DNA of 43,390 nucleotides from contig JAIOXO010000014.1 of the NCBI GenBank assembly GCA_022396035.1, positions 1 to 43,390 of the forward strand, in the 5' to 3' direction. The notes below the pieces were generated by a model. The model saw nothing but the letters and a program-made list of their open reading frames with translations. It was not told the origin of the DNA and ran no database searches. Position 1 is the stretch's first letter; each line of letters opens with the position of its first letter. Of the stretch, positions 11,347-43,390 are shown in pieces. Both the position numbers and the translations under genes were made by a program. The stretch comes from Actinomycetes bacterium (GTDB lineage Bacteria > Actinomycetota > Humimicrobiia > Humimicrobiales > Humimicrobiaceae).

Positions 11347-13290
11347 CTAACCTTTCTTATATTTATTATCCAATGACAGTATGAGCTGTTCAACAGTAGG
11401 AAAATCCTTTAGATCAGTATAGGGCAGAAAAAGTCCCGCCACATACCTGTCCATGAACTTCATATTAACGCTAAGCTCCACATAGGTAAGGGCATCAGCA
11501 ATGCTTACCGACTGCTCATATCTTGACTGGGAAAGCAAGCTTATGTATGCTCCGGTAACCGAGGTATTTCCGAGAAAGAAATACTTGTTTATATCAATGT
11601 CCGGCAGCATGCCTATGACTATTGCATTATCAATATTTAGATTCTTGCCCAGCCCGCCGGCAATATATACCTTGTCCAGATCATAAACACTTAAATCTAC
11701 CTCTTCCAGCAAAGTTTTAATGCCTGCATATACGGCAGCCTTGGCCCTCATAAGATTGTCTATATCCACTTCACTTATATATATCTTTTTTCCGTCTGCT
11801 GAAGCTTCCCTGCCGGCAATTATATACCGGTATTCCCCCTCTTCCTGCTCCAGATAGCTGTTGCCTATATCCTGGTTAAATTTACCCTTCCTGTCTATCA
11901 CCCCTTTAAGATACATCTCTCCTATAACATCAATTAAACCGGAACCGCATATGCCCCTGGGCTTTCCTCCTCCAATTACTTCCACCCTGCATCCGTAATG
12001 CTCCTGGTCTATATATACCTTCTCTATTGCTCCCTCAATGGCCCTTATTCCGCATTTGACTCCCCCGCCTTCAAAAGCAGGACCAGCGGAACAGGAACAG
12101 CCCATCATCCATTCATTATTTCCCACTACCAGTTCCCCGTTGGTGCCCAGATCAATAAACAGGGTTAAATCCTGTTTATGGTTCATTCCGGTAGCCAGCA
12201 GGCCCGAGGTTATGTCCCCGCCCAGATAGCTGGCCACCCCCTGTATACAGTAAGTAAATGCATTTTTGATATGCTTTATTCCAATATCTGAAGCCCTGCA
12301 GTCCGAGAAACGATTGGCTACGGTTACATAAGGCTCCTCCCTGATGTATTTTGGTGAAACCTCGTAAAACAGGTGCATCATAGTAGAATTTCCTGAAATC
12401 ATCAGAGACACTATGCTTTCAGAATCTATCTGACATTTTAGCAGCAGCCTCCAGATAAGGTTATTTACAGAATCGGTAACCACTTCCTTTAATTTTTTCA
12501 AACCGCCTTTTTTACCGGCAAATACAATCCTGTTTATTATATCTTCACCGAATCTAATCTGCGGATTATACTCAGATTCCGTTGCCAGTATCTTTCCACT
12601 CTGTAAGTCCACCAGATACATCACCAGAGTAGTGGTACCGATATCCAGGGCTAGGCCGTAAAGCTGAGGGTCCTTTTGCCGGGTATCAACATCTATGACC
12701 AGGTTTTTGCGGGTTTCAATCAAGGCCATTACTTTCCAGTCATTTTCTCTGAGCACCCAGGGAAGTTTCTTCAGTACATCTATGGGAATCTCAATATCTT
12801 TTATACCCAGTTTGTCCTTCACCACTTTTTTAAACCGGTAAAGGTCACTGGTCCCGAAAGTTAATGATGGCTTTTCCACCTCAACTTCTATGTTTTTAAT
12901 CCAGGGTTCCGGTTTTACTGTTTCAAATTCCTGGCTGCTTACTCCGGCATAAGCCTTGGAAACCTGTACAAACTGTCCCTTTTCAATTATGGCCTTCACC
13001 GTCCTGGTTTCAGGAATTGCCACCACCAGATCACCGGTTACCCTGGCCATACAGGACAGCACAAAACCTTCATTTACTTTCTCATCGGATAAGTATTTAG
13101 TCCTTTTGGCATCAACTTTGCCTTCTTTTACCTGTACCACACATCTTCCACAGGTCCCCACCCCTCCACATGATGAATCTATATGGATCCCGCAATCCAG
13201 TATTGCCTGGCGCAGGTTATAGTTTTTGGAAACATCGATTTGTTTATTGCTGGGAAGAAACTGGATATGATATTTGTTTTGGCTTACCAT
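11347..13290 (-). CDS. RACo-type reductive activator of the corrinoid protein (2Fe-2S + ASKHA)
   Basis: This family reactivates CFeSP by ATP-driven reduction of accidentally oxidised cob(II)alamin to cob(I)alamin. The 647-residue protein begins with a plant-type [2Fe-2S] ferredoxin domain with ligands Cys41, Cys47, Cys50 and Cys80 (SSCGGVGTCGRC...SC). A linker follows, then the ASKHA-type domain starting near residue 212 (GLALDIGTTT), with further nucleotide-site stretches LFIDLGTNGE and VYIAGGLGKN (DUF4445 family). It heads the cooC transcript, with a TATAAT-type promoter just upstream. The family also includes activators of other corrinoid methyltransferase systems, so it might in addition serve methyltransferases elsewhere. 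Its place in the CODH/ACS cluster makes CFeSP the likely client. Confidence 0.93.
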   Translation of the reverse strand: MVSQNKYHIQFLPSNKQIDVSKNYNLRQAILDCGIHIDSSCGGVGTCGRCVVQVKEGKVDAKRTKYLSDEKVNEGFVLSCMARVTGDLVVAIPETRTVKAIIEKGQFVQVSKAYAGVSSQEFETVKPEPWIKNIEVEVEKPSLTFGTSDLYRFKKVVKDKLGIKDIEIPIDVLKKLPWVLRENDWKVMALIETRKNLVIDVDTRQKDPQLYGLALDIGTTTLVMYLVDLQSGKILATESEYNPQIRFGEDIINRIVFAGKKGGLKKLKEVVTDSVNNLIWRLLLKCQIDSESIVSLMISGNSTMMHLFYEVSPKYIREEPYVTVANRFSDCRASDIGIKHIKNAFTYCIQGVASYLGGDITSGLLATGMNHKQDLTLFIDLGTNGELVVGNNEWMMGCSCSAGPAFEGGGVKCGIRAIEGAIEKVYIDQEHYGCRVEVIGGGKPRGICGSGLIDVIGEMYLKGVIDRKGKFNQDIGNSYLEQEEGEYRYIIAGREASADGKKIYISEVDIDNLMRAKAAVYAGIKTLLEEVDLSVYDLDKVYIAGGLGKNLNIDNAIVIGMLPDIDINKYFFLGNTSVTGAYISLLSQSRYEQSVSIADALTYVELSVNMKFMDRYVAGLFLPYTDLKDFPTVEQLILSLDNKYKKG

Positions 13291-31256: not shown

Positions 31257-32300
31257 TTATATCTTGACCTGTTTGGAATAATCAAAAAAAGTTTCAATTT
31301 TTTCCATGGATGTATCATTCTGGATATTATGGGTAGGACCCAGAATTAAACCCCCGTTATAGCCCACTGTTTGAATTCTGGTTAATATCTCTTCTTTTAG
31401 AGCTTCTATAGTGGCAAAAGGCAGAGTCTCCTGCTCATCTATAGTACCCATAAAGCAAAGATGCTTTCCAAATCTTTCCTTTATCTGTGCAGGATCCATG
31501 CACTTGGGCTGTACAGGATTTAATATATCCACACCTACTTCAATTAAATCATCAATGATGGGCATAATATAACCATCGCTATGAAAAGCAATTTTGACCC
31601 GGCTGTTTATGCTTTTAATTTCTTTAATAAGCAGCCTGTATCTTTCTTTTAAGAATTCCCTGAACATTGCAGGTGAAATAATCATTCCGTTCTGCATCCC
31701 TACATCGTCACCTATCCAGATTATATCCACCCCTATTGATGCCAGCTTCTTACCGGCAGGTATATAGAATTGCAGCAGCTTATCCATTAGTATATTAACA
31801 AATTCTTTGTTTACCATCATATCCATGAGCAAATTATCCATACCCCTCAAATACCAGGATAGTTCAAATATGGTACAGGTAAGGTCTACCATGATAGCAT
31901 ACCGGGCATCGAACTCCTGCTTCATTTCCATAACTTCATAGTATCTTGATTCCTTATCGGGATCCGGGATCTTATAACCTTTTAAATCTTCAAGGGAAGC
32001 CTTTTCCAGAGGCTTAAAAATTATCTCAGCATAAGAGCCCTTGCCATGCTTGACTGTTCCAAAACCTATTCCCCACTCATCCAATTCCTGTTCATTCCGG
32101 TATATCTTGCCCCAGGAATCAGCCACGCCTACCGGACAATTGACTATATCATTGCCCAGAAAGGTAAGCAGATTATTACCTTTTAACTCATATTTTCGGT
32201 AAAGCTTTTCTTCAACCTCAGGCACTAATTCTGCAAACAGGGGGGTACGGTCAGGTTTTTGTAAATTTATTGCTTTAAATACTCTCTCTTTTGAATTCAT
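31257..32300 (-). CDS. UroD/MtaA-fold putative methyltransferase (first)
   Basis: The 347-residue protein belongs to the uroporphyrinogen decarboxylase superfamily, on the branch that includes corrinoid/cobamide-linked methyltransferases such as MtaA and CmuA. True HemE signatures are not seen. Family-like stretches are MNSKERVFKAINLQKPDRTP, the WIGDDVGMQNGMIISP segment, AFHSDGYIMPIIDDLIEVG and VDILNPVQP. The zinc-type H-x-C motif reads H-S-D (His240, Asp242), while GPTHNIQ supplies another histidine. The start is the ATG at 32300 with GGGAGG five bases upstream; a TTG further up would include that site. It is 18 bases after the second UroD-like gene and last in the transporter operon. The substrate is unknown; methyl transfer is an inference. 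Confidence 0.8.
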   Translation of the reverse strand: MNSKERVFKAINLQKPDRTPLFAELVPEVEEKLYRKYELKGNNLLTFLGNDIVNCPVGVADSWGKIYRNEQELDEWGIGFGTVKHGKGSYAEIIFKPLEKASLEDLKGYKIPDPDKESRYYEVMEMKQEFDARYAIMVDLTCTIFELSWYLRGMDNLLMDMMVNKEFVNILMDKLLQFYIPAGKKLASIGVDIIWIGDDVGMQNGMIISPAMFREFLKERYRLLIKEIKSINSRVKIAFHSDGYIMPIIDDLIEVGVDILNPVQPKCMDPAQIKERFGKHLCFMGTIDEQETLPFATIEALKEEILTRIQTVGYNGGLILGPTHNIQNDTSMEKIETFFDYSKQVKI

Positions 32301-32318
32301 CCAAGCCTCCCGCAAGGA

Positions 32319-33350
32319 CTAAGATAATAATTTATTATCCCTGTATTTTTGTAAAGTGTCCACTAGGGCCAAAAAATTCTCAGGTTTACAGTCGGAAGTG
32401 ACTTCATGGGAAGGAGAAATTATATAGCCGTTATTTTTACCCAGTGTTTCTATACAATCTATAACTTCCTGTTTTACCTGTTCAGGGGTGCCAAAAGGGA
32501 GGGTCCTCTGAGTGCTTATGCCGCCAAAAAAAGATAATTCTTTTCCAAATCTATTGGATAGCTCTTCAAGATCCATCGCTTCCGGTTGAATAGGGTTAAG
32601 CACATCCAGACCGATATCTATTAAATCCGGAATTATTTCCATTATATTGCCACAGGAATGGTGGAATACCGAAAGGCCATTTTCTTTGTATATACCCCAT
32701 ATTTTCTTGTATCCCGGTTTAAAATATTTTCTCCAGGTATCAGGTGACATAACCATACCCATCTGGGTTCCCACATCACTGCCGGTAAATATACCATCAA
32801 TTACCTTATGTTTAACCAATTTTCTGGCAATCTCTACATGAAACTCAATAATACCATCAAGTAAATAATTAACTAACTTCTGGTTAATGTGTAAATCCAT
32901 CAATGTTTTCTCGTATCCTCTTAAAAGCCAGAGTCTTTCAAAAAGAGTCCAGTCCTGCAGGGACAGGATATAGTGTTGTTCTCTTTGTAGACTGCCTGTA
33001 TTATGGATTGTGGACAGCAAATCATCCTTGGGCTCAGGGAATTTGTATTTTAGAGCCTTTTCATCGTCGGTTAAGGGATGATGCCTTATATGGAAACCCT
33101 CGGTTAAAACCAGATCCCAGCCAACCCCCCCAATGTCGTACTGGATACCATTTTTTTCATCTACACTGACTTTATCATCCAGAGGCAGGTATTTAAGATG
33201 GTTATTTAAGGCTTCATCTATGTCTTCCGGCTTGATCTGCAATAAATTACCTATGATGGTCTTCATTTCGGGAGTTGCATCTATCTGCGTAGGAAAACAG
33301 TCTATATTTGTCCTGCTAACTATCTTTTTGACTTTTTCTTTTTTATTCAA
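32319..33350 (-). CDS. UroD/MtaA-fold putative methyltransferase (second)
   Basis: The 343-residue member of the same superfamily is clearly related to its neighbour but diverged. It shows IFTGSDVGTQMGMVMSP, VFHHSCGNIMEIIPDLIDIG and LDVLNPIQPEAMD. Unlike its partner it keeps the H-x-C pair (His231, Cys233) used for zinc in MtaA-type methyltransferases; ISPSHEV follows later. The start is a TTG with AAGG upstream, 10 bases after the permease stop. Placement directly behind a carbohydrate-type importer suggests the imported compound, or a product of it, is the methyl donor or acceptor. No corrinoid-binding protein gene is in this neighbourhood, so a decarboxylase-like or other lyase function cannot be excluded. 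Confidence 0.8.
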   Translation of the reverse strand: MNKKEKVKKIVSRTNIDCFPTQIDATPEMKTIIGNLLQIKPEDIDEALNNHLKYLPLDDKVSVDEKNGIQYDIGGVGWDLVLTEGFHIRHHPLTDDEKALKYKFPEPKDDLLSTIHNTGSLQREQHYILSLQDWTLFERLWLLRGYEKTLMDLHINQKLVNYLLDGIIEFHVEIARKLVKHKVIDGIFTGSDVGTQMGMVMSPDTWRKYFKPGYKKIWGIYKENGLSVFHHSCGNIMEIIPDLIDIGLDVLNPIQPEAMDLEELSNRFGKELSFFGGISTQRTLPFGTPEQVKQEVIDCIETLGKNNGYIISPSHEVTSDCKPENFLALVDTLQKYRDNKLLS

Positions 33351-33360
33351 TTTAGATGCC

Positions 33361-34227
33361 TTATTCTTTTACTCCGCCAGCAGTTAAGCCTTGTATAATA
33401 TATTTTTGGAAAAACAGTGCCAGTGCTATAGGTATTATGCTGGCCAAAACTCCTGCTGTAGCCATCATGCTAAAATCAGTAGTAAACTTACTCGAAAACT
33501 CACCCACCAATACCGGTAAAGTCTTGGAGGCCATGGTGGTTGTATATAATAAAGCAAAAAAGAATTCATTCCATGAAATTACAAAAATAAAGATTGCTGT
33601 AGAAGCAATACCGGGAGCACTTAAAGGCATCACTATTTTCCATAAACTTTTCAGCCTGGAACAGCCATCTATCTGGGCAGCCTCTTCCAGATCCACCGGT
33701 ATGCCATCAAAAAATTCTTTCATAAACCAGGTGGCCAGGGGAAGATTAAATGAGCAGTATACAAATACAAGGGTTCCTATATTATCTAATATCTGCAGCT
33801 TGGATAGTAAAATATATAAAGGAATAGCTAACGATATTGGCGGTAACATATAAGATAGCATCATTATAGTAAAGGTTAACCGCATTCCCCTGGACCTGAG
33901 CCTGGAAAATGAATAAGCGGCCATAGATCCAAATCCGATGCTTATAAGTGTAGCAAAAACACTTACCAGAAAACTGTTGAATGCAGTACCTTTAAATTCT
34001 CTGGCTGCTCTTGTGGCCATAGAACCACCCAATATTATTTTTTTATAGCCATCCAGATTAATTTTTTCAGGGATCCAGCCCAAAGGTTTCTCTAAAAGAT
34101 CCGCCCTGGTAGATATGCTGGAAATAACCATCCAGGCAAATGGCGCTAATACCCATAAAACTATAATTGCTATTAATACATACAATAATATTCTAAATCC
34201 GATATATCTTGCTTTTAAATTTGTCAC
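33361..34227 (-). CDS. ABC transporter permease, MalG type (system 1)
   Basis: The 288-residue inner-membrane permease of a carbohydrate-type (CUT1) importer has six predicted helices. The EAA loop reads EEAAQIDGCSRLKSLWKIVMP, the site where the ATPase docks. It ends with the MalG-like FQKYIIQGLTAGGVKE. The start is a GTG with GAGGG upstream. It follows the MalF-type gene by 53 bases and precedes the second UroD-like gene. No ATPase gene lies in the window, so a shared MsmX/MsiK-type ATPase elsewhere is expected. A decayed copy of its 3-prime end lies at 37014-37086. Confidence 0.93.
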   Translation of the reverse strand: MTNLKARYIGFRILLYVLIAIIVLWVLAPFAWMVISSISTRADLLEKPLGWIPEKINLDGYKKIILGGSMATRAAREFKGTAFNSFLVSVFATLISIGFGSMAAYSFSRLRSRGMRLTFTIMMLSYMLPPISLAIPLYILLSKLQILDNIGTLVFVYCSFNLPLATWFMKEFFDGIPVDLEEAAQIDGCSRLKSLWKIVMPLSAPGIASTAIFIFVISWNEFFFALLYTTTMASKTLPVLVGEFSSKFTTDFSMMATAGVLASIIPIALALFFQKYIIQGLTAGGVKE

Positions 34228-34280
34228 TTAACCCTCTTCTTACTCTTTGTTTATTAATAAATTTAACATTCTAGGGTTCT

Positions 34281-35177
34281 CTAGCTTACCGAACTTAATA
34301 TATTTCTTCTTATAAAAATAACTGCCAGTATCGCAGTTAGTATAGTCACTATATAAGCTATAGCTGAACCATAACCAAAATTTAAGAATTTAAAAGTTTG
34401 TTGATATATATAGTAATTAACCAGCGTCGTACCAGCCTGAGGACCGCCTTTGGTTATTATATATATAAGTTCAAATTCTCTAATCGCCCAGACCGCCTTG
34501 ATTATAAAAGTGGTTACTAAGACTGGTACTACCAATGGCAAAGTAACCCACCTGAACTTTGAAAAAGGAGATGCCCCATCGATGCTTGCCGCTTCATAAA
34601 GCTGTGAAGGTATAGTCTGAAAGAATGCAAGCACCATTATAATTACTACCGGAGTTTCCTTCCACACATTAGCCAGCATTATCAGATTAAGAGCTATGAA
34701 GGGATTCTGAAGCCAGACCTGATATGAGTCTATAATATGTAACTGGTGTAAAAAAGCATTAAGTGCACCGTAATTAGCATTAAAAATCCATTTCCACATA
34801 ACACCATTTACTACTCCGGGGATGACCCATGGCAACAAAACCAATCCCCTCAATACTGTTCTTCCTTTAAACTTCTGATTAAGAACCAGACTTATAAGTA
34901 TTCCTATTACAATTTCTGCAGATACAGTACCCATCACAAAATAAATAGTTCTCCACATTGACCCCCAGAAGTACTTATCTTTTAGTACTTCCAGGTAATT
35001 TTTCAAACCAATAAATTGCTGGGCATTAGGTTTATATAACACCAGGTCAGTAAAGCTTACATATAAAGAATATGCTATGGGAATTATCAAAACCAACAAT
35101 ATGATTATAGAAGCAGGTAGAATCAATGCATAGAAAAATGTTTTTTTGGAAGCAAATGTCGAAATTCTGTTTCCCAA
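34281..35177 (-). CDS. ABC transporter permease, MalF type (system 1)
   Basis: The 298-residue permease has six helices, an N-terminal FFYALILPASIIILLVLIIP helix, and the EAA loop YEAASIDGASPFSKFRWVTLP. It is the partner of the MalG-type permease. The start is a TTG with AAGGAG about eight bases upstream. It is separated from the binding-protein gene by a 110-bp spacer with a very stable hairpin, which may lower permease relative to binding-protein expression. The substrate is not predictable from the permease. Confidence 0.93.
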   Translation of the reverse strand: MGNRISTFASKKTFFYALILPASIIILLVLIIPIAYSLYVSFTDLVLYKPNAQQFIGLKNYLEVLKDKYFWGSMWRTIYFVMGTVSAEIVIGILISLVLNQKFKGRTVLRGLVLLPWVIPGVVNGVMWKWIFNANYGALNAFLHQLHIIDSYQVWLQNPFIALNLIMLANVWKETPVVIIMVLAFFQTIPSQLYEAASIDGASPFSKFRWVTLPLVVPVLVTTFIIKAVWAIREFELIYIITKGGPQAGTTLVNYYIYQQTFKFLNFGYGSAIAYIVTILTAILAVIFIRRNILSSVS

Positions 35178-35246
35178 CCCGTACTCCTTGTACTCTTTAT
35201 ATAAACAATTATAAACTATATATTTGTAAATATAGAATTATTTTTT

Positions 35247-35272
35247 GTAGGCCAGCGGGTTAGCTGGCCTAC
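35247..35272 (-). promoter_or_regulatory. Intercistronic hairpin between binding protein and permease genes (system 1)
   Basis: GTAGGCCAGC and GCTGGCCTAC form a perfect 10-bp GC-rich stem with a 6-base loop, 15 bases past the binding-protein stop codon. Downstream on the minus strand the sequence is A-rich, not a T-run. It therefore looks like an mRNA-stabilising or partial-termination element, as known between malE and malF, rather than a full terminator. Confidence 0.7.
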
Positions 35273-35287
35273 ATTCTTTTCGCCTAA

Positions 35288-36682
35288 TTATTGTAGGTTA
35301 CCCTGTATTTCCGCGTTCAAGTCTTCTAATGCCTGCTCTGTAGTTTTCTCATCAGTAAGCACAGATTGTACCTGAATTTCTACAGAATTAACCCATTCTC
35401 CTACCCAGTCAATTCTTGGATATGCCCTTGCATAGGGAAGAACATCCTGAAGGTTGGACCAGTAAGGATATATTTCAGTAAGCTCTTCATCTCCAAAACT
35501 TTCTGTCCACACTGGCAATGATCCTATCTCTAAGCTTCTTTCCTTATCTTTTTCCTTGCCGGTTATGAACTTTATATACTCCCAAGCAGCTTCTTTGTTC
35601 TGTGAAGTCTTAGGTATGGCAAGAGCTTCTGGTAAGGACATGGTTGCCTGGGTTTCCTCAGTTTTTCCTAAAACCCAGGAAGCAACTTCAACTTGTCCTA
35701 CTATTGCCGAGCTGTCCGGGTTATTAGACTCGCTTACCAGTCCTGGCCATGCCTGTGGGAAAAATGCTGTTCTGCCTGATATAAATACATTCATTGAGTC
35801 TTCCTGAACATAGGTCAGTGAGGCAGGATCAGCAATTTCATCTACATTTAATATATTGTACATGTAGTCTAGCCCCTCAGCAACAGCTGGGTCTTCAAGA
35901 AAGGTAGGATTTCCTTCTTCATTAAAGAAATTACCGCCATGAGCCCAAACGTTACCATGAGTTGCATTAGAAAGATGCATTCCTCTTGACCAGAAGCCGG
36001 CAATCCCATATTCTGCAAGTCCTGCATCCATTATAGTTTTAGATTGCTCTATCATCTCATCAAAAGTTCTTGGCGGTTCAGCTATTCCTGCATCATCTAA
36101 CATTTGCCTGTTGTATATGAAAAATCTAATGTCATGGTTCCAGGGGATACCATAAAGATCATCCTGTACAGAGAATATGCCTACTGCTCCTTCGGCCAAA
36201 CCGGAAATCCATTCTTCTGAGGCATATTCATTTAAGGGAACTACCCAATCAGCATTTACAAATTGGGTAACCCAGGAATTATCTAGTTCAATGACATCAT
36301 AGGCAGAACCACTCGCAGCCATTTCGGGTATTACCTTATCTTTTACTCTATCCCATTCTGCTTGAATTAATTCTACCTCAATTCCGGTTAATTCTGTAAA
36401 TTCCCTGGTCTGTTGCTCAAATATCCCCACAGTATCCATCTCATGTTTGGGAAATATGACTGTAATTTGCGTACCAGCCAGATCGCTGGCAGGTTCTTCT
36501 TCTGCAGGTTCTCCCGCAGGTTCTTCTGCTGGTTCTTCGCCTGCAGGCTCTTCAGCCGGGGCCTCTTCAGCAGATTCTTCGGCAGGAGTAACTTCCTGGG
36601 CGCAACCGGCAAAAACGGTTACTACCATTGCTACTGCCACTATTAATGCGATTATTGTGCTCAATTTTCTAAATATTGACAT
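35288..36682 (-). CDS. Carbohydrate-type ABC substrate-binding lipoprotein (system 1)
   Basis: The 464-residue protein has a signal peptide with lipobox (VFAGC, Cys27), an Ala/Glu/Pro/Gly linker (about residues 30-68), and a family-1 extracellular solute-binding domain (MalE-like). The domain opens TQITVIFPKHEMD and contains AAWEYIKFITG. The ATG has AGAGGAGG upstream. It leads the operon binding protein - MalF - MalG - UroD-like - UroD-like. The bound compound is unknown. The linker probably spaces the domain from the membrane. Confidence 0.93.
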   Translation of the reverse strand: MSIFRKLSTIIALIVAVAMVVTVFAGCAQEVTPAEESAEEAPAEEPAGEEPAEEPAGEPAEEEPASDLAGTQITVIFPKHEMDTVGIFEQQTREFTELTGIEVELIQAEWDRVKDKVIPEMAASGSAYDVIELDNSWVTQFVNADWVVPLNEYASEEWISGLAEGAVGIFSVQDDLYGIPWNHDIRFFIYNRQMLDDAGIAEPPRTFDEMIEQSKTIMDAGLAEYGIAGFWSRGMHLSNATHGNVWAHGGNFFNEEGNPTFLEDPAVAEGLDYMYNILNVDEIADPASLTYVQEDSMNVFISGRTAFFPQAWPGLVSESNNPDSSAIVGQVEVASWVLGKTEETQATMSLPEALAIPKTSQNKEAAWEYIKFITGKEKDKERSLEIGSLPVWTESFGDEELTEIYPYWSNLQDVLPYARAYPRIDWVGEWVNSVEIQVQSVLTDEKTTEQALEDLNAEIQGNLQ

Positions 36683-36753
36683 TTATCCTCCTCTAAGTAA
36701 TTAAATTCGATACAATATTATTTTATTTTTTTATAGGAACCTCCTTTCTGATA

Positions 36754-36984
36754 TGAATCCCCCCGATCCTGGACACCAAGCTAACTTATCAGAACCAGCT
36801 GATAGGACTCATTTCCTTTTATATTTTTATTATTTATATTTTCAAATTCCTCCGGAGGCATATACCCCATTGAAGAATGCAACCTCTTTCTATTGTAGAC
36901 TTCTTCAATAAAATAGGGAGTCCTTTCAAGGACCTCTGTGTATGTCTCGTATTCAAACATATAGATCTCTCCAACTTTTAATCC
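36754..36984 (-). pseudogene. IS3-family transposase (OrfB) C-terminal remnant
   Basis: A 67-codon open stretch encodes the last part of an IS3-type integrase-core transposase: FIEEVYNRKRLHSSMGYMPP followed by EEFENI, ending at a TAG at 36781. The upstream part, including the DDE catalytic residues, is gone. Just past the stop is a terminal-repeat-like end (36754-36775, TGAATCCCCC...GGACA) with the 5-prime TG expected of IS3 elements. The other end is not found. The remnant lies between system 1 and the isomerase-like gene and marks an old insertion or deletion. Confidence 0.8.
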
Positions 36985-37013
36985 TTACCTGTCCAAACTT
37001 ATGCTGCGCCAGT

Positions 37014-37086
37014 TATTCAATTCAGATGCCTTATTCCTATATTCCACCACCAATGAGACCCGATAATGATATATTTGTGACTAAAG
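37014..37086 (-). pseudogene. Degenerate copy of a MalG-type permease 3-prime end
   Basis: This stretch aligns over roughly 70 bases with 33343-33412, the end of the system 1 MalG gene and the start of the next gene. It shares TATTCAATT-AGATGCCTTATTC and further matches through the permease C-terminus. Translated on the minus strand it gives ISLSGLIGGGI then a stop, a decayed version of YIIQGLTAGGVKE. It adjoins the IS3 remnant, so a second permease/UroD-like junction once lay here. The bases 36985-37013 between the two remnants hold nothing recognisable, nor does 36683-36753 apart from the binding-protein leader. Confidence 0.6.
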
Positions 37087-38469
37087 TTAAGGTAAAATTA
37101 CTTTGATACCCATCATCCCGCAAAAATCGATTAGGGATTTGTACATTTCCTGGCCATAGCCGAGACATGCATACTCATTTTTCCAATTCTCCAGCAGACT
37201 CTCTATATCGCCTTCCACCTTTATAAAAGCATGCGGCCATGACGGTATTCCGCATTCCTTCCTTCTCTTTTCTATTTCATCAGCCGGTGGTTCAAAAATA
37301 GAGCATTTTACGATAACCATCTCAAATTTGCCATTATTTCTGCCAAGTCTTGCCAGCACTCCCTGTCCGGGCTTACATACAAGACTAACCGATAAGCCTC
37401 CAGCCTTGCCTTCGGTGGGTACACCATGCTCGGCAAATTTAGCTTCTCCTACACTACCCGCAAGCGATGGGGGTATAGCTCCATCCCCTATTATCTTTAT
37501 TTCATTATTGTCCTTATCTATATGCTGCAGGTCCCCATAGTATACTCTCTCCCTGCTTAGCTTGGTTAGAAGCACCACGGTCATAAGCGTATTGAAATCT
37601 GACAGCGTGGACGTAGGTATACCATCTTCAAGCATCATGCTTTGAGCAAAACAAGTGGCAGCATAGTCATCTGCCATACCGGGAAATGACTGAATGGTAT
37701 AAAAATCAAAGCCCTCTTTCTTAAGTATTTCTTTGAGGGCAAGATACAGCCGGATTGACCTTTGAGCAACTTCATCCAGCTCTGGAACTTCTCCAAAGAA
37801 TTCTTTAAGCCTGGGTAAAAATTCTGAGATTTGACTATCACTAATGCTTTTTGCTAATTCTATCAGCTGGGTTGTATCCCTTGAATCGATATCTACTCCA
37901 AAAACCCGCATCCATTGCGAAGGATCTGCCACCCCGCATGTTTGACCCATTCCTCTTCCTCCAAAAACACCGGCAGTAGTCATATTCAGATAATTTTTCA
38001 AGCCGGCTGCTTTACAGTAGCTTATTATGGTGTCAATATCTTTCTTACTATCTGAAGAGCCATAAACAAATTTATGCTTTAATCCAATCTCCTTTAAGGC
38101 CGCACTCATAACCAGGCCCCCTACAGGTCTCCATCCCTGTGAACCAGGATGGGTCCAGATAAGTATTTCCTTTCCTGAATTTACATAATCCCTTACTGCT
38201 GCAATCAGATTTGCAGCCCAGACCCAAGTTCCGGAAAAAAGTATTACACAGTCAATAGTTTCATCATTCTTCATCTTCCTGAATGCTTCCCTGGCTTCCT
38301 TTTTGGTAGCTATAATGGTATCATAATCAACTATTTCCATGCCCTCTTTTTTAAGTGAATCTTTTGAGTTATTGATAATTTCTTCATCAATAAATTCCGT
38401 GCCCATTGGATCCTTTAGGCCATCCTTGTGAACACCATAGACAATGAATCCTACTTTTGGTTTTAACAT
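37087..38469 (-). CDS. L-fucose/L-arabinose isomerase-family protein
   Basis: The 460-residue protein resembles the L-fucose/L-arabinose isomerase superfamily, which interconverts aldoses and ketoses using a divalent metal. Visible blocks are PKVGFIVYGVHKDG, VILFSGTWVWAANLIAA, the GVFGGRGMGQTCGVADPSQW region, QSFPGMADDYAATCFAQS and GDGAIPPSLAG. The ATG has GAGGGG upstream. It lies downstream of transporter system 2, separated by the IS1595 element, and the ancestral operon may have been continuous. Many such distant homologues have unproven substrates (fucose, rhamnose-like or sulfo-sugars), so none is assigned. Confidence 0.8.
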   Translation of the reverse strand: MLKPKVGFIVYGVHKDGLKDPMGTEFIDEEIINNSKDSLKKEGMEIVDYDTIIATKKEAREAFRKMKNDETIDCVILFSGTWVWAANLIAAVRDYVNSGKEILIWTHPGSQGWRPVGGLVMSAALKEIGLKHKFVYGSSDSKKDIDTIISYCKAAGLKNYLNMTTAGVFGGRGMGQTCGVADPSQWMRVFGVDIDSRDTTQLIELAKSISDSQISEFLPRLKEFFGEVPELDEVAQRSIRLYLALKEILKKEGFDFYTIQSFPGMADDYAATCFAQSMMLEDGIPTSTLSDFNTLMTVVLLTKLSRERVYYGDLQHIDKDNNEIKIIGDGAIPPSLAGSVGEAKFAEHGVPTEGKAGGLSVSLVCKPGQGVLARLGRNNGKFEMVIVKCSIFEPPADEIEKRRKECGIPSWPHAFIKVEGDIESLLENWKNEYACLGYGQEMYKSLIDFCGMMGIKVILP

Positions 38470-38497
38470 TAGCTACCCCTCTCTAAAATATTAATTT

Positions 38498-38516
38498 AGA
38501 ATAGAAAAACTATTCT
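38498..38516 (-). promoter_or_regulatory. Perfect inverted repeat in leader of the isomerase-like gene
   Basis: AGAATAG and CTATTCT (7-bp arms, 5-base A/T loop) lie about 30 bases before the start codon and would form a short RNA hairpin just upstream of the ribosome binding site. It may alternatively be an operator. Confidence 0.4.
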
Positions 38517-38579
38517 CAAGCCAACTAATTTATGGCATCTACATTTATATATATATCTTACTTGTTAACATATTATCAT

Positions 38580-38589
38580 AACCATGGTT
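38580..38589. promoter_or_regulatory. Operator-like palindrome upstream of the isomerase-like gene
   Basis: AACCATGGTT is a perfect 10-bp palindrome about 110 bp upstream of the start. On the minus strand it lies between two near-repeats, AATATGTAAAC and AATATGTTAAC. Sugar operons often carry such sites for LacI-type regulators, but the class here is a guess. The rest of 38470-38713 is AT-rich with no gene seen. Confidence 0.3.
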
Positions 38590-38713
38590 TACATATTACG
38601 TTATATGGAAACCAAACAATCTTATTCAGAACTAAATTATGTCCAAGTTTAATACTTCTAAAATGAAAGTAATAATATTTACCTTCCTGGGTTACCATCT
38701 GAAATTATTTTTT

Positions 38714-39725
38714 TGGGCTATGCACTTGATTCAAGTACCCACTACATATAGTAGTATAAAAACCCATAATCTCATCCTTAAAAATCTTTTCCCGGTAAAG
38801 GATCAAGGGCAACAGCCTGTTGTACAAGACGGAAAAAGAGCTTGCCCCGGGATTTAGATGTTCTCCGGTTAAAACGGAACGTAAATTCATCGAGATAATA
38901 GTCAAGGTGAGAAGTTTGCACTGCTCCCTGGTGAGTCCCCAGAAGCCAGCGCTTTAGCAAACTTGCTACCCTATTGCACCTGGGCAGCAGATTTTCCCCT
39001 ACCTCAGCCTCTTTGCGGACTATTTCATGGACATAGCCTGCTGTATTCAGCCCCCTATACCCATTCCATCCATCTGTATATACAAAGCTTCCCGGCTCTA
39101 CAGCTTTGTCTATAGCCTCCTCCAAACTCTCTCCGGATGCATCGGGCACCCTCTGAAGCCTGATTCTTCCTATTCTGGGTCCGTCAATTTGTGCAATAAT
39201 TACCACCAGTGCTTTTCTGCCGGCACCCCGGCCACGTTTGCCCTTTCTTTGTCCACCGATATAGGTTTCATCCACTTCCACTACACCGGATAATCTATCA
39301 CGGCCAGGCCTTACCATGGCACGGCGCAGTTTATGAAGCCACTTCCAGGCAGTCCGGTAACTTCCAAGTTCTAAAGCACGCTGCAAGCCCAGTGCACTAA
39401 CCCCCTGTTTCTGGTTGGTAGCATACCACATCGCCCTAAACCACAGCAGCAGCGGCTTCTTGGTATCTTGAAATATTGTCCCTGCTGTTAATGCAGTCTG
39501 ATGGCCGCAGTTTGCACAGTGATACAATTTATTGCCGGTCAACCAGGCTTTTTCTCCCTGGCAGCTGGGACATTTAAACCCATCAGGCCAGCGGACCTTA
39601 AATAGGTACTCCCTGCAAGCATCTTCGGTTGCAAATTTTTTCTCAAACTCCATAATTGTCCGTGGAAAATCTTCCATGAGCCATATACTATATGTTGTAC
39701 CTACTTGAGTCAAGTGCATAGCCCA
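38714..39725 (-). mobile_element. Intact IS1595-family insertion sequence
   Basis: The 1012-bp element has imperfect terminal inverted repeats of about 40 bp (38714-38753 and 39686-39725). They share TGGGCTATGCACTTGA, then one mismatch and TCAAGTA, and later ACATATAGTA. The same 10 bases, ATTATTTTTT, flank both sides (38704-38713 and 39726-39735) as a target duplication. It contains a single full-length transposase gene. It inserted 25 bp after the stop of the system 2 MalG gene. The intact repeats and duplication suggest a fairly recent insertion. Confidence 0.9.
38778..39677 (-). CDS. IS1595-family (ISXO2-like) transposase
   Basis: The transposase of about 299 residues starts MEDFPRTIMEFEKKF. 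It has an N-terminal zinc ribbon (KCPSCQGEK...HCANCG) and a DDE/DDN-type core with VVEVDETYIGG, VYTDGWNGY and LKRWLLGTHQG, and ends with the family-typical YLDEFTFRFNRRTS. A longer reading frame reaches into the terminal repeat, so the internal ATG at 39677 is the better start. No frameshift or internal stop is seen, so it is probably functional. Confidence 0.93.
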   Translation of the reverse strand: MEDFPRTIMEFEKKFATEDACREYLFKVRWPDGFKCPSCQGEKAWLTGNKLYHCANCGHQTALTAGTIFQDTKKPLLLWFRAMWYATNQKQGVSALGLQRALELGSYRTAWKWLHKLRRAMVRPGRDRLSGVVEVDETYIGGQRKGKRGRGAGRKALVVIIAQIDGPRIGRIRLQRVPDASGESLEEAIDKAVEPGSFVYTDGWNGYRGLNTAGYVHEIVRKEAEVGENLLPRCNRVASLLKRWLLGTHQGAVQTSHLDYYLDEFTFRFNRRTSKSRGKLFFRLVQQAVALDPLPGKDF

Positions 39726-39750
39726 ATTATTTTTTATCAGTTTTTTGACA

Positions 39751-40602
39751 CTATTCTTTTACCGCTCCTGCTGTAAGCCCCTTAATTATGTAACGCTGGA
39801 ATATCAGAACAAAAAGTACAGGGAAAATAATTGCCAGAATAGCTGAAGCAGTAATATTGCCATATTCTATCTGGTATTTAGTGACAAACTGTGCCAGTGC
39901 CAATGGTAGGGTCTGCGTCCTCTCAACATTAACCAAAGCCATTGCACCCATAAACTCACCCATGGAAAAAACAAAACATATGACTCCTGCTGAAACAATT
40001 CCGGGTAAGGAGAGCGGTACGATTACTCTCATAAGCGCTCCAACCTTAGATGCTCCATCTATTCGTGCTGAATCTTCAAGGTCCCTGGGAATTGTCTTAA
40101 AATAACTGTATAATATCCAGGTTACTATAGGCAATAGCCAGGATATTTGAAGAATTATCAGACCTTGAAGTGTATTGGTAAGCCTGAGTTGTTTAAATAT
40201 CAAATAAAAAGGTATAAGGAGGGCAACCGGCGGCAACATTTCTACAAATATAAGTGCAATAAACATAATATTTGACCCTTTGAACTTCAACCTGGCGAAA
40301 GCATATGCAGCAAAAATCCCGAATATAATACAGGCACCGGTAGTGACTATAGCTACTATCAAACTATTTTTCAATGCTATGGCAATATTTACCCTCCCCC
40401 CGCCAAGAACACTGATGAAATTTTGCAAGGTTATATTTCTAGGTATAAAATTCGGAGTTGGCAGATAAAGCTGCCCCGAGGGTTGAATGCTGGTCGCTAA
40501 AATCCAGTAAAAGGGAAACAAAAAGAAAATCATAACTGCTATAACAGCAAGATAGAGCATTAATCTTTTTAATCTTTTGACGTTTACCCATCTTTTTTTC
40601 AT
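39751..40602 (-). CDS. ABC transporter permease, MalG type (system 2)
   Basis: The permease of about 283 residues has six helices, the EAA loop EDSARIDGASKVGALMRVIVP and the C-terminal FQRYIIKGLTAGAVKE, both MalG-like. I take the ATG at 40602, one base after the MalF stop with GAGG upstream; a GTG five codons earlier would overlap the previous gene. It is paired with the MalF-type gene. The IS element lies directly downstream. No ATPase gene accompanies it. Confidence 0.92.
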   Translation of the reverse strand: MKKRWVNVKRLKRLMLYLAVIAVMIFFLFPFYWILATSIQPSGQLYLPTPNFIPRNITLQNFISVLGGGRVNIAIALKNSLIVAIVTTGACIIFGIFAAYAFARLKFKGSNIMFIALIFVEMLPPVALLIPFYLIFKQLRLTNTLQGLIILQISWLLPIVTWILYSYFKTIPRDLEDSARIDGASKVGALMRVIVPLSLPGIVSAGVICFVFSMGEFMGAMALVNVERTQTLPLALAQFVTKYQIEYGNITASAILAIIFPVLFVLIFQRYIIKGLTAGAVKE

Positions 40603-40603
40603 C

Positions 40604-41515
40604 TTATTGTGCCTCACCGGTCCTTCTTAAAATAATTACATAAACAACGGTTATAGTCATGGATATGGATAGGATTATATATGATATTGCTGATGCGTAT
40701 GATAGATGATAGAACTTGAAGGCATTATACCAGTCAAATAAAGTTGCATTAGTAGTTATATTTCCTGGTCCACCTCTGGTAAGCACAAAAAATAGGTCAA
40801 AAGCATTAATAGCAAAAATTGTCCCTAGAATGGTTGAAATAAAGATTGGGAACTTTACCATAGGTAAGGTTATATAGAAAAAATTCTTTATAGCTCCGCC
40901 CCCATCTATTCGTGCAGCTTCATAAATGTCATCAGGAATTGTCTGTAGGCCTGCAAGTATAATAATTACAAAAAAAGGAGTACCTTGCCAGACATCTGCC
41001 AGGATAACACAGGGCATGGCAAAAGTCCGGGTGGACAGAAAAGGAATATATGATTCTATTATACCAACTTTATCCAGGAGGAAGTTGATAACTCCGACCT
41101 TTGAATGCAGCATCCATTTCCACATAAGTCCAACCACTATAAAAGGTGTGGCCCAGGGAATTATTATTAAAGCTCTAGCCAAACTTCTTCCAACGAAATT
41201 TTCTTTCAACATCAATGCTATAAGTATTCCCAGTATAAGTTTTACAAGAACTGCAAAAAAAACAAATGTGGCGGAAACTTTTAAAGAATTAATAAAGGCT
41301 GAATCAGTAAACGCTCTAACATATTGAAAAATCCCAACGAAATTATAATCATGTATGTTGGCGAATTTTACATCACCAAAACTCATAACAAATGAATATA
41401 TAAGCGGATACAAAACAACACCTACGACCAGTATCAGAGTTGGAATAACAAGAACCGCTACTAACTTTCTATTGCTATGTTCAAAATTGAATAGTTTTAA
41501 AAAAAACCTTTTCAC
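40604..41515 (-). CDS. ABC transporter permease, MalF type (system 2)
   Basis: The 303-residue permease has six predicted helices and the EAA loop YEAARIDGGGAIKNFFYITLP. The start is a GTG with CAGGAG about ten bases upstream. It is preceded by a 104-bp spacer with a 16-bp perfect hairpin that parallels system 1. It is diverged from the system 1 MalF, so the two systems are probably old paralogues or separate acquisitions rather than a recent duplication. Confidence 0.93.
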   Translation of the reverse strand: MKRFFLKLFNFEHSNRKLVAVLVIPTLILVVGVVLYPLIYSFVMSFGDVKFANIHDYNFVGIFQYVRAFTDSAFINSLKVSATFVFFAVLVKLILGILIALMLKENFVGRSLARALIIIPWATPFIVVGLMWKWMLHSKVGVINFLLDKVGIIESYIPFLSTRTFAMPCVILADVWQGTPFFVIIILAGLQTIPDDIYEAARIDGGGAIKNFFYITLPMVKFPIFISTILGTIFAINAFDLFFVLTRGGPGNITTNATLFDWYNAFKFYHLSYASAISYIILSISMTITVVYVIILRRTGEAQ

Positions 41516-41553
41516 TGTATTAAACTCCTGCCCATATATTACAGTTTATTTAA

Positions 41554-41588
41554 GTTGGTACCTTCTTAAGACTTAAGAAGGTACCAAC
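41554..41588 (-). promoter_or_regulatory. Intercistronic 16-bp hairpin between binding protein and permease genes (system 2)
   Basis: GTTGGTACCTTCTTAA and TTAAGAAGGTACCAAC form a perfect 16-bp stem with a 3-base loop, 31 bases after the binding-protein stop. The minus-strand sequence that follows (TTAAATAAACTG) is not a T-run. As in system 1, mRNA 3-prime protection or partial termination is the likely role. Confidence 0.75.
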
Positions 41589-41619
41589 CCGTGGCTTAAA
41601 GTACTAATTTTTTGTTAAA

Positions 41620-42987
41620 TTATCCTTGTGGCACCGGTGTAAGCTGGTCAGCAAATTCCTGAAGTGCAGCACAAGCGTCTTCAGCACTCATCTCACCTAA
41701 TAATGCCGGATGGATCCTGTTAGCTGTTTCTATCCTTAACTCATACGTAGATTCAACTGGCGGGAATTGATCAGCTAGATTACCTTTAACCATTTCGATG
41801 ACGTCTAGATACGGAAGAGCTTCTGCTATTTCAGGGTCATCATACTGTTCACTATAAACAGGCATAGATTTATCAACCAGCGATCTTGTTTTTGTGTTTT
41901 CATAGGTTGCTATAAATCTAATATACTCTGCTGCCAGTTCTGGATTTTCTGCTGATTCAGGAATTAATAGATACTCGTGTCCGTCTAGCGTTCCTGTCAT
42001 ACCTTGCTCTCTTCCCGGGAAAGCAAAATAACCAGTGTTATTAAACTGCTCCTCGGTTAAGAAACCGGAATACATCTCCCACATGGACATCATAGCAATA
42101 TCGCCCTGGTCAAACAGGGATGAAACTTCCTGCTGGATCTGAACCAGTACTCCAGGATCTATCAGATCTTCCTCTAGTAAAGATCTCATAAATTCTACAG
42201 TCATAACAGTTTCTGGAGCATCAAAATTAAATTTTAAGTCTCCATCAACCCATTCATATTCCTCTACGCCTGAAGACTGCATCATCAATATGAAATTAAG
42301 GAAGAAATTCTCTGTTGTCCAGTCAGCTACATAGTTATAATTACCATTGAACTCATTCAATAATGCAATGGTATCCTTAAACTCATCCCATGTTTCCGGA
42401 ATAGTGGCCCCTGCTTCCTCAAATATTGTTTTATTATAGAACATTATCTGATAGCTGGGTAAAAATGGTACACCCATTATATTGTCTCCCAGAGTGGAGT
42501 ATTCAACAAGTTCCGGTACCATTTGGTCAAATATTTCCGGGAAATAGTCATTAAGTGGTTTGAGTTTGTTGGGAAATTCTATCCATGCATTCTTTCCATT
42601 ACCCATTACGTCCAGAGGTTCATCGGTAGCAAGAATCTGGGCACTCTGCTGGAACCAGACATCCCAGCCTATCTCATTATAATCAACTGTTACCCCGTAT
42701 AATTCTTCAAATTCACGAGTTTTCCCCTCCAGGCCGGACATTGCAATATCCGGGGATAATTTAACCACTATGCTCTGTCCCTCAAATTCACTAGTCACCT
42801 CTCCGGCAGGCTCTTCAGCTTCTGCAGCCGGTTCTTCAGCTTCTGCAGCAGGCTCTTCAGCTGGAGCTTCTGCAGCAGGCTCTTCGGCTGGAGCTTCTGC
42901 AGCAGGAGCGCACCCGGTTAAGGAAAAAGTCGCTATCATTGAAACAGTCACTGCTACTGCTACTAACCATAATAATAATTTCTTCAT
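41620..42987 (-). CDS. Carbohydrate-type ABC substrate-binding lipoprotein (system 2)
   Basis: The lipoprotein of about 455 residues has a signal and lipobox (SLTGC, Cys26 from this start), a long Ala/Glu/Pro linker, and a family-1 solute-binding domain (opening SIVVKLSPDIAMSG, later LAAEYIRFIATYENTKTRS). I choose the ATG at 42987 because AAAGGA precedes it. An ATG eight codons earlier is possible and is one base after the stop of a small upstream open frame. It heads the system 2 operon with a strong promoter about 310 bp upstream. The ligand is unknown. Confidence 0.92.
   Translation of the reverse strand: MKKLLLWLVAVAVTVSMIATFSLTGCAPAAEAPAEEPAAEAPAEEPAAEAEEPAAEAEEPAGEVTSEFEGQSIVVKLSPDIAMSGLEGKTREFEELYGVTVDYNEIGWDVWFQQSAQILATDEPLDVMGNGKNAWIEFPNKLKPLNDYFPEIFDQMVPELVEYSTLGDNIMGVPFLPSYQIMFYNKTIFEEAGATIPETWDEFKDTIALLNEFNGNYNYVADWTTENFFLNFILMMQSSGVEEYEWVDGDLKFNFDAPETVMTVEFMRSLLEEDLIDPGVLVQIQQEVSSLFDQGDIAMMSMWEMYSGFLTEEQFNNTGYFAFPGREQGMTGTLDGHEYLLIPESAENPELAAEYIRFIATYENTKTRSLVDKSMPVYSEQYDDPEIAEALPYLDVIEMVKGNLADQFPPVESTYELRIETANRIHPALLGEMSAEDACAALQEFADQLTPVPQG
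42809..42904. repeat. Coding minisatellite in the lipoprotein linker (2 x 21 bp + 2 x 27 bp)
   Basis: Four tandem units beginning GGCTCTTCAGCT or a close variant lie at 42809-42829, 42830-42850, 42851-42877 and 42878-42904. The longer units carry a 6-bp insertion. They encode Ala-Glu-Glu-Pro-type linker repeats. Unit lengths are multiples of three, so copy number can change without breaking the frame. A looser version occurs in the system 1 lipoprotein linker at about 36480-36590. Confidence 0.75.
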
Positions 42988-43011
42988 TTGATTTCCTTTC
43001 GCTTCACTCAT

Positions 43012-43390
43012 GTTATTGTGAGCTTTTTGAGTTTACTTCTCTGCTACTGGTTCTGCAATGAATACTAAACTCACCCATTATCTCTCTAACTATAAATAGT
43101 CACCTCCTTCCTACAAGGATATAGTGTCAAGATATATAAAGTAGAAAATATCCTTTCTGTAATAATAAATACAGTATTTATTTTTATCGCATTCATTGGG
43201 TAGATAATGAATTGTTTGATTATCCATACTGTTTTTACCAGGCATTCCCCAAGAAACAGAGCACTTCCTTTTAGTGTAAATCTAATGCCTTTATCTATAA
43301 AATAGTATAGGCAATTATTACAGTTGCTGTCAATAGATATGCTTTGAGATAGTCTGCATACCGCAATAAAAAGATAGGTAGATAAAGCAG
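43012..43390 (-). other. Long leader region of system 2 with no protein gene of normal size
   Basis: This 379-bp region holds the predicted promoter and about 300 bases of leader. It contains a possible structured element: a 7-bp pair AGGCATT/AATGCCT (43240-43246 with 43284-43290) around about 37 bases. It also has an extended Shine-Dalgarno match (AAGGAGGTGA, around 43100-43111) whose AAGGA could pair with TCCTT five bases upstream, hiding the site. A short open frame of about 21 codons (from an ATG near 43078) ends in TAA one base before the ATG at 43011. I do not recognise a known riboswitch class. Confidence 0.4.
43304..43333 (-). promoter_or_regulatory. Predicted strong sigma-70 promoter of transporter system 2
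   Basis: On the minus strand a consensus TTGACA (43328-43333) lies 18 bp before TATACT (43304-43309). It is the best promoter match seen in the window. Transcription would begin near 43297, giving a leader of roughly 300 bases before the binding-protein gene. Confidence 0.65.

Follow-up and report, generated by a model that had tools for sequence, protein, structure and literature searches.

The superfamily named after uroporphyrinogen decarboxylase (UroD) includes the O-demethylases MtvB, OdmB, VdmB and MtoB of acetogens and methanogens, whose known substrates are methoxylated aromatics (PMC13222342). Zinc is reported to be present in some such enzymes and absent from CdmB and the Moorella enzyme, and growth on methoxy-aromatics proceeds via Mto-type proteins (PMC8359953, PMC10477458). 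Bacterial MtaA-like proteins (Mlp) have been assigned tentatively to methyl-sulfur or methyl-selenide metabolism (PMC10418091). For sugars, the only demethylation route met in the literature searched is oxidative, namely the aerobic demethylation of 6-O-methyl-D-galactose from porphyran by a P450 (PMC10033563). The matches listed from the open-access literature, a scope outside which most subscription papers lie, contained no report of a corrinoid-dependent sugar demethylation. In the present work, two UroD-fold genes, UroD1 and UroD2, were analyzed which directly follow a carbohydrate-type importer (system 1) in a stretch of 43,390 nucleotides, in the following called the window, from an Actinomycetes bacterium (assembly GCA_022396035.1, contig JAIOXO010000014.1).

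Altogether, we lean, if only slightly, towards the view that enzymes of the UroD1 type demethylate O-methyl sugars in a corrinoid-dependent manner, and that system 1 together with the UroD pair serves as a single unit of uptake and demethylation. As in the systems of acetogens and methanogens, the genome of the window encodes a UroD candidate for methyltransferase I (MT-I), an MtaC-type corrinoid protein, a methyltransferase II (MT-II) of family PF00809 and the reactivator RACo, and operons of relatives combine UroD with MtaC and RACo (locus L176) or with MtaC and PF00809 (L216). This likeness is one of gene families. In contrast to these systems, UroD1 and UroD2 lie on other contigs than the corrinoid proteins of the genome, and the genes linked to them encode sugar importers and enzymes of sugar catabolism, where the known systems act on methoxylated aromatics (PMC13222342). 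With the methylcobamide:coenzyme M methyltransferases MtaA and MtbA and with Mlp, the two proteins share the fold, the nearest structure (4ay7) and the position of the metal motif, but they score far below the family cut-offs and carry Asp or His in place of Cys ligands. Like the P450 route, the proposed pathway would remove the O-methyl group before normal sugar catabolism; the P450 route is, however, oxidative, yields formaldehyde and depends on other enzymes (PMC10033563). The locus apparently represents a variant of the corrinoid methyltransferase systems, with a known superfamily and a probably new substrate class.

Gene order of the importer operon

The window is contig C14, ending at position 43390, of a 1.6-Mb genome (40 contigs, 98% complete) with metagenome-assembled Actinomycetes and Actinobacteria as its named relatives; the source organism is an uncultured, probably anaerobic bacterium, presumably of the class Humimicrobiia. 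On the minus strand, the order of transcription is the binding protein and two permeases of a second importer (system 2), an IS1595-family element, an L-fucose-isomerase-family gene, the binding protein and two permeases of system 1, UroD2 and finally UroD1. System 1 and the UroD pair comprise the following features (scores in bits, compared to the cut-off of the model):

35288..36682, minus strand: system 1 solute-binding lipoprotein (SBP_bac_1), PF01547 129.3 vs 26
34281..35177, minus strand: system 1 permease, MalF-like, PF00528 66.6 vs 26.4
33361..34227, minus strand: system 1 permease, MalG-like, PF00528 71.2 vs 26.4
32319..33350, minus strand: UroD2, UroD-fold protein with predicted metal site H231-x-C233...H315, PF01208 83.4 vs 23.9
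31257..32315, minus strand: UroD1, UroD-fold protein with predicted metal site H245-x-D247...H329, PF01208 94.2 vs 23.9

The two permease genes are separated by 53 bp. Since the gaps from the MalG-like gene to UroD2 and from UroD2 to UroD1 amount to only 10 bp and 3 bp, the UroD pair is tied to system 1. A scan of the region for promoters and terminators gave counts equal to those of shuffled sequences (38 vs 39.1 and 10 vs 10.6, respectively). The original prediction, made from the DNA alone, had named two importer sets and two UroD-fold genes in this region, and all of them were recovered with PF01547, PF00528 and PF01208 matches above the cut-offs. By Pfam, both sets show the make-up of CUT1 importers, i.e. 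one binding protein and two permeases. No ATPase gene adjoins either set within the window; upstream of system 2, the contig soon ends. On contig C8 of the same genome, an ATPase of the UgpC/MsmX type is encoded, the kind that is shared among CUT1 importers (PRK11650, 492.6 vs 432 bits).

Family, fold and predicted metal site of UroD1 and UroD2

The predicted models of both proteins were confident, with pLDDT values of 90.5 for UroD1 and 88.6 for UroD2, and the UroD TIM-barrel fold was confirmed by Z values of 25.6 to 31.1 against HemE and MtaA chains. The nearest solved structure by sequence is in both cases MtaA of Methanosarcina (4ay7), which was also the top Foldseek match of UroD1 (E 8.5e-17). 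As a comparison of predicted models, the fold is not decisive between an MtaA and a HemE function. CdmB matched weakly in the PDB profile comparison (E 0.031, limited to profile positions 273-348) and was not among the 50 structure entries listed for UroD1 and UroD2, an absence that carries no weight.

For the MtaA and CmuA families, UroD1 reached 70.4 bits with PRK06252 (cut-off 244), 61.4 with TIGR01463 (235.4) and 56.6 with NF040654 (400), and UroD2 reached 62.7, 54.3 and 52.3. With scores far below the cut-offs and different metal ligands, canonical MtaA was rejected for both. The label "MtaA-like" given to them originally is thus a loose one. An alignment via 4ay7 places the zinc site of MtaA, which we take to be H-x-C...C, at an H-x-D...H in UroD1 and at an H-x-C...H in UroD2. 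MtaA has a site rich in thiolates; on chemical grounds, the harder site of two His and one Asp would suit an oxygen leaving group.

A function as HemE was rejected as well. The model TIGR01464 (cut-off 302.95) gave no match at E <= 0.001 for UroD1 or UroD2, and the N-terminal MRQAG-type motif, presumably a mark of HemE and present in the E. coli protein, occurred in none of 103 UroD rows. In a tree of 45 rows, both proteins fall within a group of 27 that includes MtaC-adjacent UroDs and CmuC; a split with a support of 93/97, just below the usual 95, parts this group from E. coli HemE, CmuA and the MtaA-like proteins of the genome. The methyl-transfer role proposed originally is consistent with this phylogeny, in which UroD1 and UroD2 do not group with HemE.

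Among the 103 UroDs gathered in the class, H-x-D...H was the commonest motif (33), followed by H-x-C...H (20), and H-x-C...C was found in 5. These counts are no census, since the choice of loci mostly started from MtaC genes and one clade supplies 19 rows. Four of 107 UroD open reading frames (ORFs), all shorter than 300 aa, were excluded before the motif table and the trees. UroDs with the H-x-D...H motif of UroD1 lie near MtaC in 20 of 33 cases. The clade of UroD1 comprises 13 rows (SH-aLRT 99), three of which adjoin MtaC and MttB. In the closest named relative (L022), UroD2 is 67% and UroD1 77% identical to the proteins of the window. A further UroD clade found beside MtaC carries Y-x-E..A and no metal motif (L146, L158, L159, L163, L179); judged by its residues, this clade is possibly a group of metal-free corrinoid methyltransferases.

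Candidate corrinoid partners in the genome

The families of the corrinoid protein, MT-II and the activator are all encoded in the genome of the window. Two small MtaC-type proteins were found, one of 225 aa on contig C5 and one of 214 aa on contig C1, the latter directly followed by the only MttB homologue of the genome. Furthermore, two PF00809 proteins are present. One is located beside folate genes and is, by its position (judged by eye), of the dihydropteroate-synthase type. The other, on C8, passes the model PRK07535 for methyltetrahydrofolate:corrinoid methyltransferases (287.3 vs 259), and the gene of the UgpC/MsmX-type ATPase follows it after 56 bp (L187 5976-7978). The activator lies within the window itself:

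11347..13290, minus strand: RACo-type corrinoid protein reactivator, PF14574 335.9 vs 27 bits, the sole PF14574 match in the genome

The original prediction had named a corrinoid protein reactivator and the folate/ACS pathway; the reactivator and genes of carbon monoxide dehydrogenase/acetyl-CoA synthase (CODH/ACS), the latter recognized by eye, are encoded in the window. It had also stated that an MtaC-like gene is missing, which is true of the window but false for the genome. The partners found there are thus two MtaC-like proteins, an MttB homologue, RACo and a methyltetrahydrofolate:corrinoid methyltransferase.

The MtaC gene on C5 (L020 9090-9767) stands alone; it is flanked by riboflavin genes on one side and, on the other, by a gene that by eye resembles a uracil-DNA glycosylase. 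This synteny was observed in 19 of the 35 MtaC-bearing genomes, and the 17 of these genes that were long enough for the MtaC tree (87 of 89 genes used) fall on one side of a branch with a support of 96/99. Such a conserved stand-alone MtaC would fit the expectation for a shared partner of many methyltransferases.

The MtaC-MttB pair on C1 (L021 266-11170) has a GlcD-like gene at a distance of about 400 bp and, a few kb off, a cluster of a FucI-like gene, a DeoC-type aldolase, an FGGY kinase and DUF4432, and this layout is repeated in a sister species (G007, L162). Known MttB relatives are reported to demethylate methylamines and quaternary amines. On C8 (L016 403-3579), genes for UPF0261, a PEP_hydrolase-like TIM barrel and an MtaA-type protein follow one another on one strand. 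This MtaA-type protein exceeds the PRK06252 cut-off (251.7 vs 244) and is separate from UroD1 and UroD2.

Linkage of UroD and MtaC across the class

PF01208 proteins were found in 36 of the 40 genomes of the class, at least 440 in total and at least 39 in one genome; the counts for G023 and G024 are lower bounds, with 39 of 51 and 39 of 42 candidates scored. MtaC-type proteins (PF02607) occur in 35 of the 40. Both were present in 34 genomes, UroD alone in two, MtaC alone in one and neither in three. The counts of UroD and MtaC are correlated, with a Spearman coefficient of 0.67 for the 40 genomes and 0.55 for the 35 of the family.

Apart from the long ORFs of G002:C45 and G007:C7 and the match of G024:C18, which is below the cut-off, the surroundings of the 95 MtaC matches were fetched, and 89 genes were recognized. 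A UroD gene lies within 5 kb of 42 of these 89, compared to 6.6 expected from the UroD density, a value that is slightly low due to the lower bounds of the UroD counts and for which the genome sizes were taken to the nearest 0.1 Mb. In 32 of the 89 cases, UroD is found within 400 bp on the same strand. In 24 of the 42 UroD-MtaC loci, MttB is missing within 5 kb, which leaves UroD as the sole candidate in the vicinity for charging MtaC. Neither UroD, MttB, an importer nor sugar genes were labeled within 5 kb of 25 of the 89 MtaC genes, which are mostly of the stand-alone kind. The number of UroDs varies strongly within the class: in G023, G024, G004, G025 and G034, with genome sizes of about 1.8-2.2 Mb, the count runs from 25 to at least 39, and the four genomes of family f3 contain none.

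Sugar operons in relatives inside and outside the class

Gene labels in the loci of relatives originate from purpose-built hidden Markov models (HMMs) with few seeds. In L150, an operon of the rhamnose type, an ATP-binding cassette importer, a rhamnulokinase-like kinase (364.5 bits, below the equivalog cut-off of 527.95), a xylose-isomerase-like TIM barrel, UroD, MtaC and the L-rhamnose mutarotase gene rhaM are found together. The combination of a rhaM-like gene with UroD and MtaC was observed in 11 loci of 11 genomes, ten of them by HMM labels (L102, L103, L126, L129, L138, L147, L148, L150, L151 and L153) and L176 by Pfam. Pfam, applied to L150 and L176, confirmed rhaM in both; it had been missed by the HMM labels in L176, and the rhaM-like protein of L103 reached 26.7 bits on the NCBIfam model, below the cut-off of 99.6. 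On one strand, L176 comprises an importer, rhaM, UroD, MtaC, two MttB genes and RACo.

Other sugars are indicated by other operons. The arabinose-type operon of L024/L088 contains three UroDs, namely UroD384, a homologue of UroD1 and an orthologue of UroD2, together with an L-ribulokinase (PRK04123, 529.5 vs 428) and the L-ribulose-5-phosphate 4-epimerase AraD (PRK08193, 340.7 vs 257); the proteins remain under the cut-offs of TIGR01234, where the ORF ends at the locus edge, and TIGR00760. The genome of this operon (G012, 95% complete) has a single MtaC of the stand-alone kind. In the genome of the window, a true L-fucose isomerase on contig C9 (1061.9 vs 775) has two UroDs as its neighbors, together with an aldehyde:ferredoxin oxidoreductase and an importer of the ribose type. 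Members of the UroD1 clade followed by MtaC and MttB were found in L086 and L087, both with CUT1 importers, and in L085, which has a FucI-like gene and shows no importer on its 9.9-kb contig. UroD is thus constant while the sugar genes vary by operon, the pattern that is expected if UroD demethylates ahead of the normal pathway of each sugar.

In a search across the phylum (396 genomes), relatives of UroD1 were found in 45 genomes, 12 of which are not members of the class. Nine loci from eight of these 12 genomes were compared. In five (L216, L218, L220, L222, L224), MtaC lies beside UroD or one gene away, and in L217, L219, L221 and L223 this is not the case, though L221 bears a different UroD-MtaC pair. 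L216 combines UroD, parts of a tripartite transporter, MtaC and a methyltetrahydrofolate:corrinoid methyltransferase (PF00809; 325.1 vs 259), which equals the classical set of MT-I, corrinoid protein and MT-II. A search of plasmids gave matches in three of 72,556 records, all below 30% identity. A plasmid of Subdoligranulum variabile (L195) carries three UroDs, accompanied, as judged by eye, by a ROK-type kinase and genes resembling glycoside hydrolases; a RACo-like gene lies at a distance of 9 kb.

The isomerase-like gene, the insertion sequence and system 2

Upstream of system 1, the region comprises the following features:

37087..38469, minus strand: divergent L-fucose-isomerase-family protein, PF02952 (Fucose_iso_C) 37.7 vs 29.3
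38713..39726, minus strand: IS1595-family element with transposase at 38778-39719, NF033547 210.5 vs 75
39751..40617, minus strand: system 2 permease, MalG-like (BPD_transp_1), PF00528 68.7 vs 26.4, with a 14-bp overlap with the MalF-like gene
40604..41515, minus strand: system 2 permease, MalF-like (BPD_transp_1), PF00528 61.3 vs 26.4
41620..43011, minus strand: system 2 solute-binding lipoprotein (SBP_bac_1), PF01547 102.7 vs 26 bits

A fucose- or arabinose-isomerase-like enzyme had been expected here from the original reading of the DNA. Its family can be upheld by the Fucose_iso_C match, but the protein stays under the cut-off of Fucose_iso_N1 (22 vs 28), and a conserved Glu and a conserved His, which presumably are metal ligands of the L-fucose isomerase family, have given way to L289 and Y433. 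When 19 family members of these genomes, the window protein among them, were aligned, 17 showed both residues; the other exception is the counterpart in L090 (2617-4047), an operon of the L022 kind. Because of this loss, an aldose-ketose isomerase step in the operon is not supported by the window protein. Judged by these residues, the two divergent proteins, both in operons with UroD2-UroD1, perhaps have a new activity or are non-catalytic. The gene, originally placed with system 2, may have belonged to either system, since in L022 a homologue lies directly upstream of UroD2-UroD1 and hence among genes of the system 1 kind. A sulfoquinovose isomerase was rejected: SftI is the top NCBIfam match, yet with 94.9 vs 700 bits. 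Compared to L-fucose isomerases and SftI, the window protein is therefore alike in its family matches and unlike in its score and the two lost residues.

The proposed insertion after system 2 was confirmed by the IS1595 transposase and by terminal inverted repeats of 41 nt, 88% complementary, at 38713-38753 and 39686-39726. The element lies 24 bp beyond the end of the last permease gene of system 2. A second transposase of this type, 66% identical, was found upstream of a UroD2-UroD1 pair in G019 (L091 4192-5175), and two in-frame stops were counted in the UroD1 copy of that pair.

Proposed pathway and alternative explanations

According to the proposed pathway, system 1 would import a carbohydrate bearing O-methyl groups, with the UroD pair expressed from the same transcription unit. 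UroD1, and possibly UroD2, would act as MT-I, in which a metal at H-x-D...H (or H-x-C...H) activates the ether oxygen. The methyl group would then reach the Co(I) of a small MtaC-like protein whose gene lies outside this operon; the stand-alone protein of C5 is the most likely one. From there, the methyltransferase on C8 would transfer the methyl group to tetrahydrofolate, so that CODH/ACS could convert it to acetyl-CoA. RACo would reactivate the oxidized corrinoid, and the demethylated sugar would enter ordinary sugar catabolism. For UroD2, the roles of a second demethylase, of an MT-II and of a partner subunit are all conceivable. The identity of the metal, the methyl transfer, the substrate and the pairing with the MtaC of C5 are what we infer from the gene order, the predicted fold, the component families and the UroD-MtaC linkage, which is observed in relatives both statistically and at the level of operons.

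A number of observations weigh against this pathway. The operon of the window contains no MtaC gene, and its own isomerase-like protein is devoid of the two conserved residues. The fold of UroD1 is slightly nearer to HemE (Z 31.1, root-mean-square deviation 2.9, 311 residues aligned) than to MtaA (29.9, 3.2, 316), and that of UroD2 ties between HemE (Z 27.2) and MtaA 4ay7 (Z 27.8). Just three of the 13 rows of the UroD1 clade lie beside MtaC, none of the nine rows of the UroD2 clade do so in the loci examined, and UroDs with the H-x-C...H motif are near MtaC in two of 20 cases. Some MtaC-adjacent UroDs carry no metal-like motif (YxE..A, MxW..S, AxE..A), so that a single mechanism cannot fit all UroDs. 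Furthermore, the counts of UroD and MtaC each also correlate with genome size (about 0.61), and no MtaC was found in the UroD-bearing genomes G011 (82% complete) and G017 (89%). The original hypothesis, uptake and corrinoid-dependent O-demethylation feeding acetyl-CoA synthase, is thus retained in part. It gains from the partners in the genome, the linkage in relatives and the separation from HemE, but loses from the missing partner gene in the operon, the altered isomerase-like protein and the isolation of the UroD2 clade from MtaC; activity and substrate are putative.

The isolation of the UroD2 clade would also be explained if UroD1 and UroD2 were enzymes of a sugar pathway that are no longer corrinoid-dependent, for example a lyase, an epimerase or a decarboxylase acting on a sugar acid, as might hold for many proteins of this large and rapidly diverging superfamily. 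This is unlikely in our view, but it deserves attention, as in G017, in which no MtaC was found, a UroD2 relative lies beside Gfo/Idh-type oxidoreductase genes (by eye), and as at least 39 UroDs in one genome compare to at most six MtaC-type matches in any. One corrinoid protein could, however, serve many MT-I enzymes. Moreover, 34 of the 36 UroD-bearing genomes have MtaC as well, the UroD1 clade has its three members adjoining MtaC and MttB, and relatives outside the class lie beside MtaC or one gene off in five of nine loci. Quite improbable is a role of the UroDs as MT-II, in which MttB would charge MtaC from an imported N- or O-methyl compound and UroD would pass the methyl group to a thiol or another acceptor, in the manner of MtaA and MtbA. 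The proximity to MtaA by sequence and Foldseek, the occurrence of UroD-MtaC-MttB trios and the H-x-C retained in UroD2 would agree with it, whereas the majority of UroD-MtaC loci without a nearby MttB (24 of 42) and the third metal ligand, which is His instead of Cys, would not, and the PF00809 methyltransferase already suits the MT-II role.

The demethylation of sugars by UroD1-type enzymes has to be compared also to a different substrate, a sugar-conjugated methoxy-aromatic such as a lignin-type glycoside, where the sugar would explain the importer and the aromatic part the O-demethylase. The characterized O-demethylases of the superfamily do use methoxylated aromatics (PMC13222342). Yet the linked genes vary by operon between rhaM, rhamnulokinase-like, L-ribulokinase, AraD, FucI and GalK/GalT-like (by eye) genes, as expected if every sugar has its own demethylase, and no aromatic-degradation genes were noticed in the loci read, where no search was aimed at them; we therefore consider such a glycoside very doubtful. 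Finally, the position of the UroDs next to sugar importers could result from chance or from shuffled operons, and their task could be an unrelated one. The rearrangement of operons between relatives would be in line with such hitch-hiking, but in several genomes the association is seen again with other types of importer and other sugars, and the adjacency of UroD and MtaC is far over expectation, which leaves this explanation barely credible.

Implications for the family

In a broader reading, which we regard as evenly balanced, the expanded UroD set of this uncultured Actinomycetota family (at least 39 in one 2.2-Mb genome) would represent sugar-specific corrinoid-dependent O-demethylases that share a few MtaCs. 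Methylated rhamnose, fucose, arabinose, galactose and other sugars would be imported and demethylated without oxygen, their methyl groups would enter the Wood-Ljungdahl pathway, and the pair in the window would be one such unit. O-methyl sugars are found in plant, algal and microbial polymers, and if the reading is true, it would explain how they could be used where oxygen is absent. Sugars would then join the substrates of corrinoid methyltransferases, and dozens of genes liable to be named "uroporphyrinogen decarboxylase" would obtain a testable function. In addition, the fermentation of sugars would be linked directly to the synthesis of acetyl-CoA from methyl groups within one organism.

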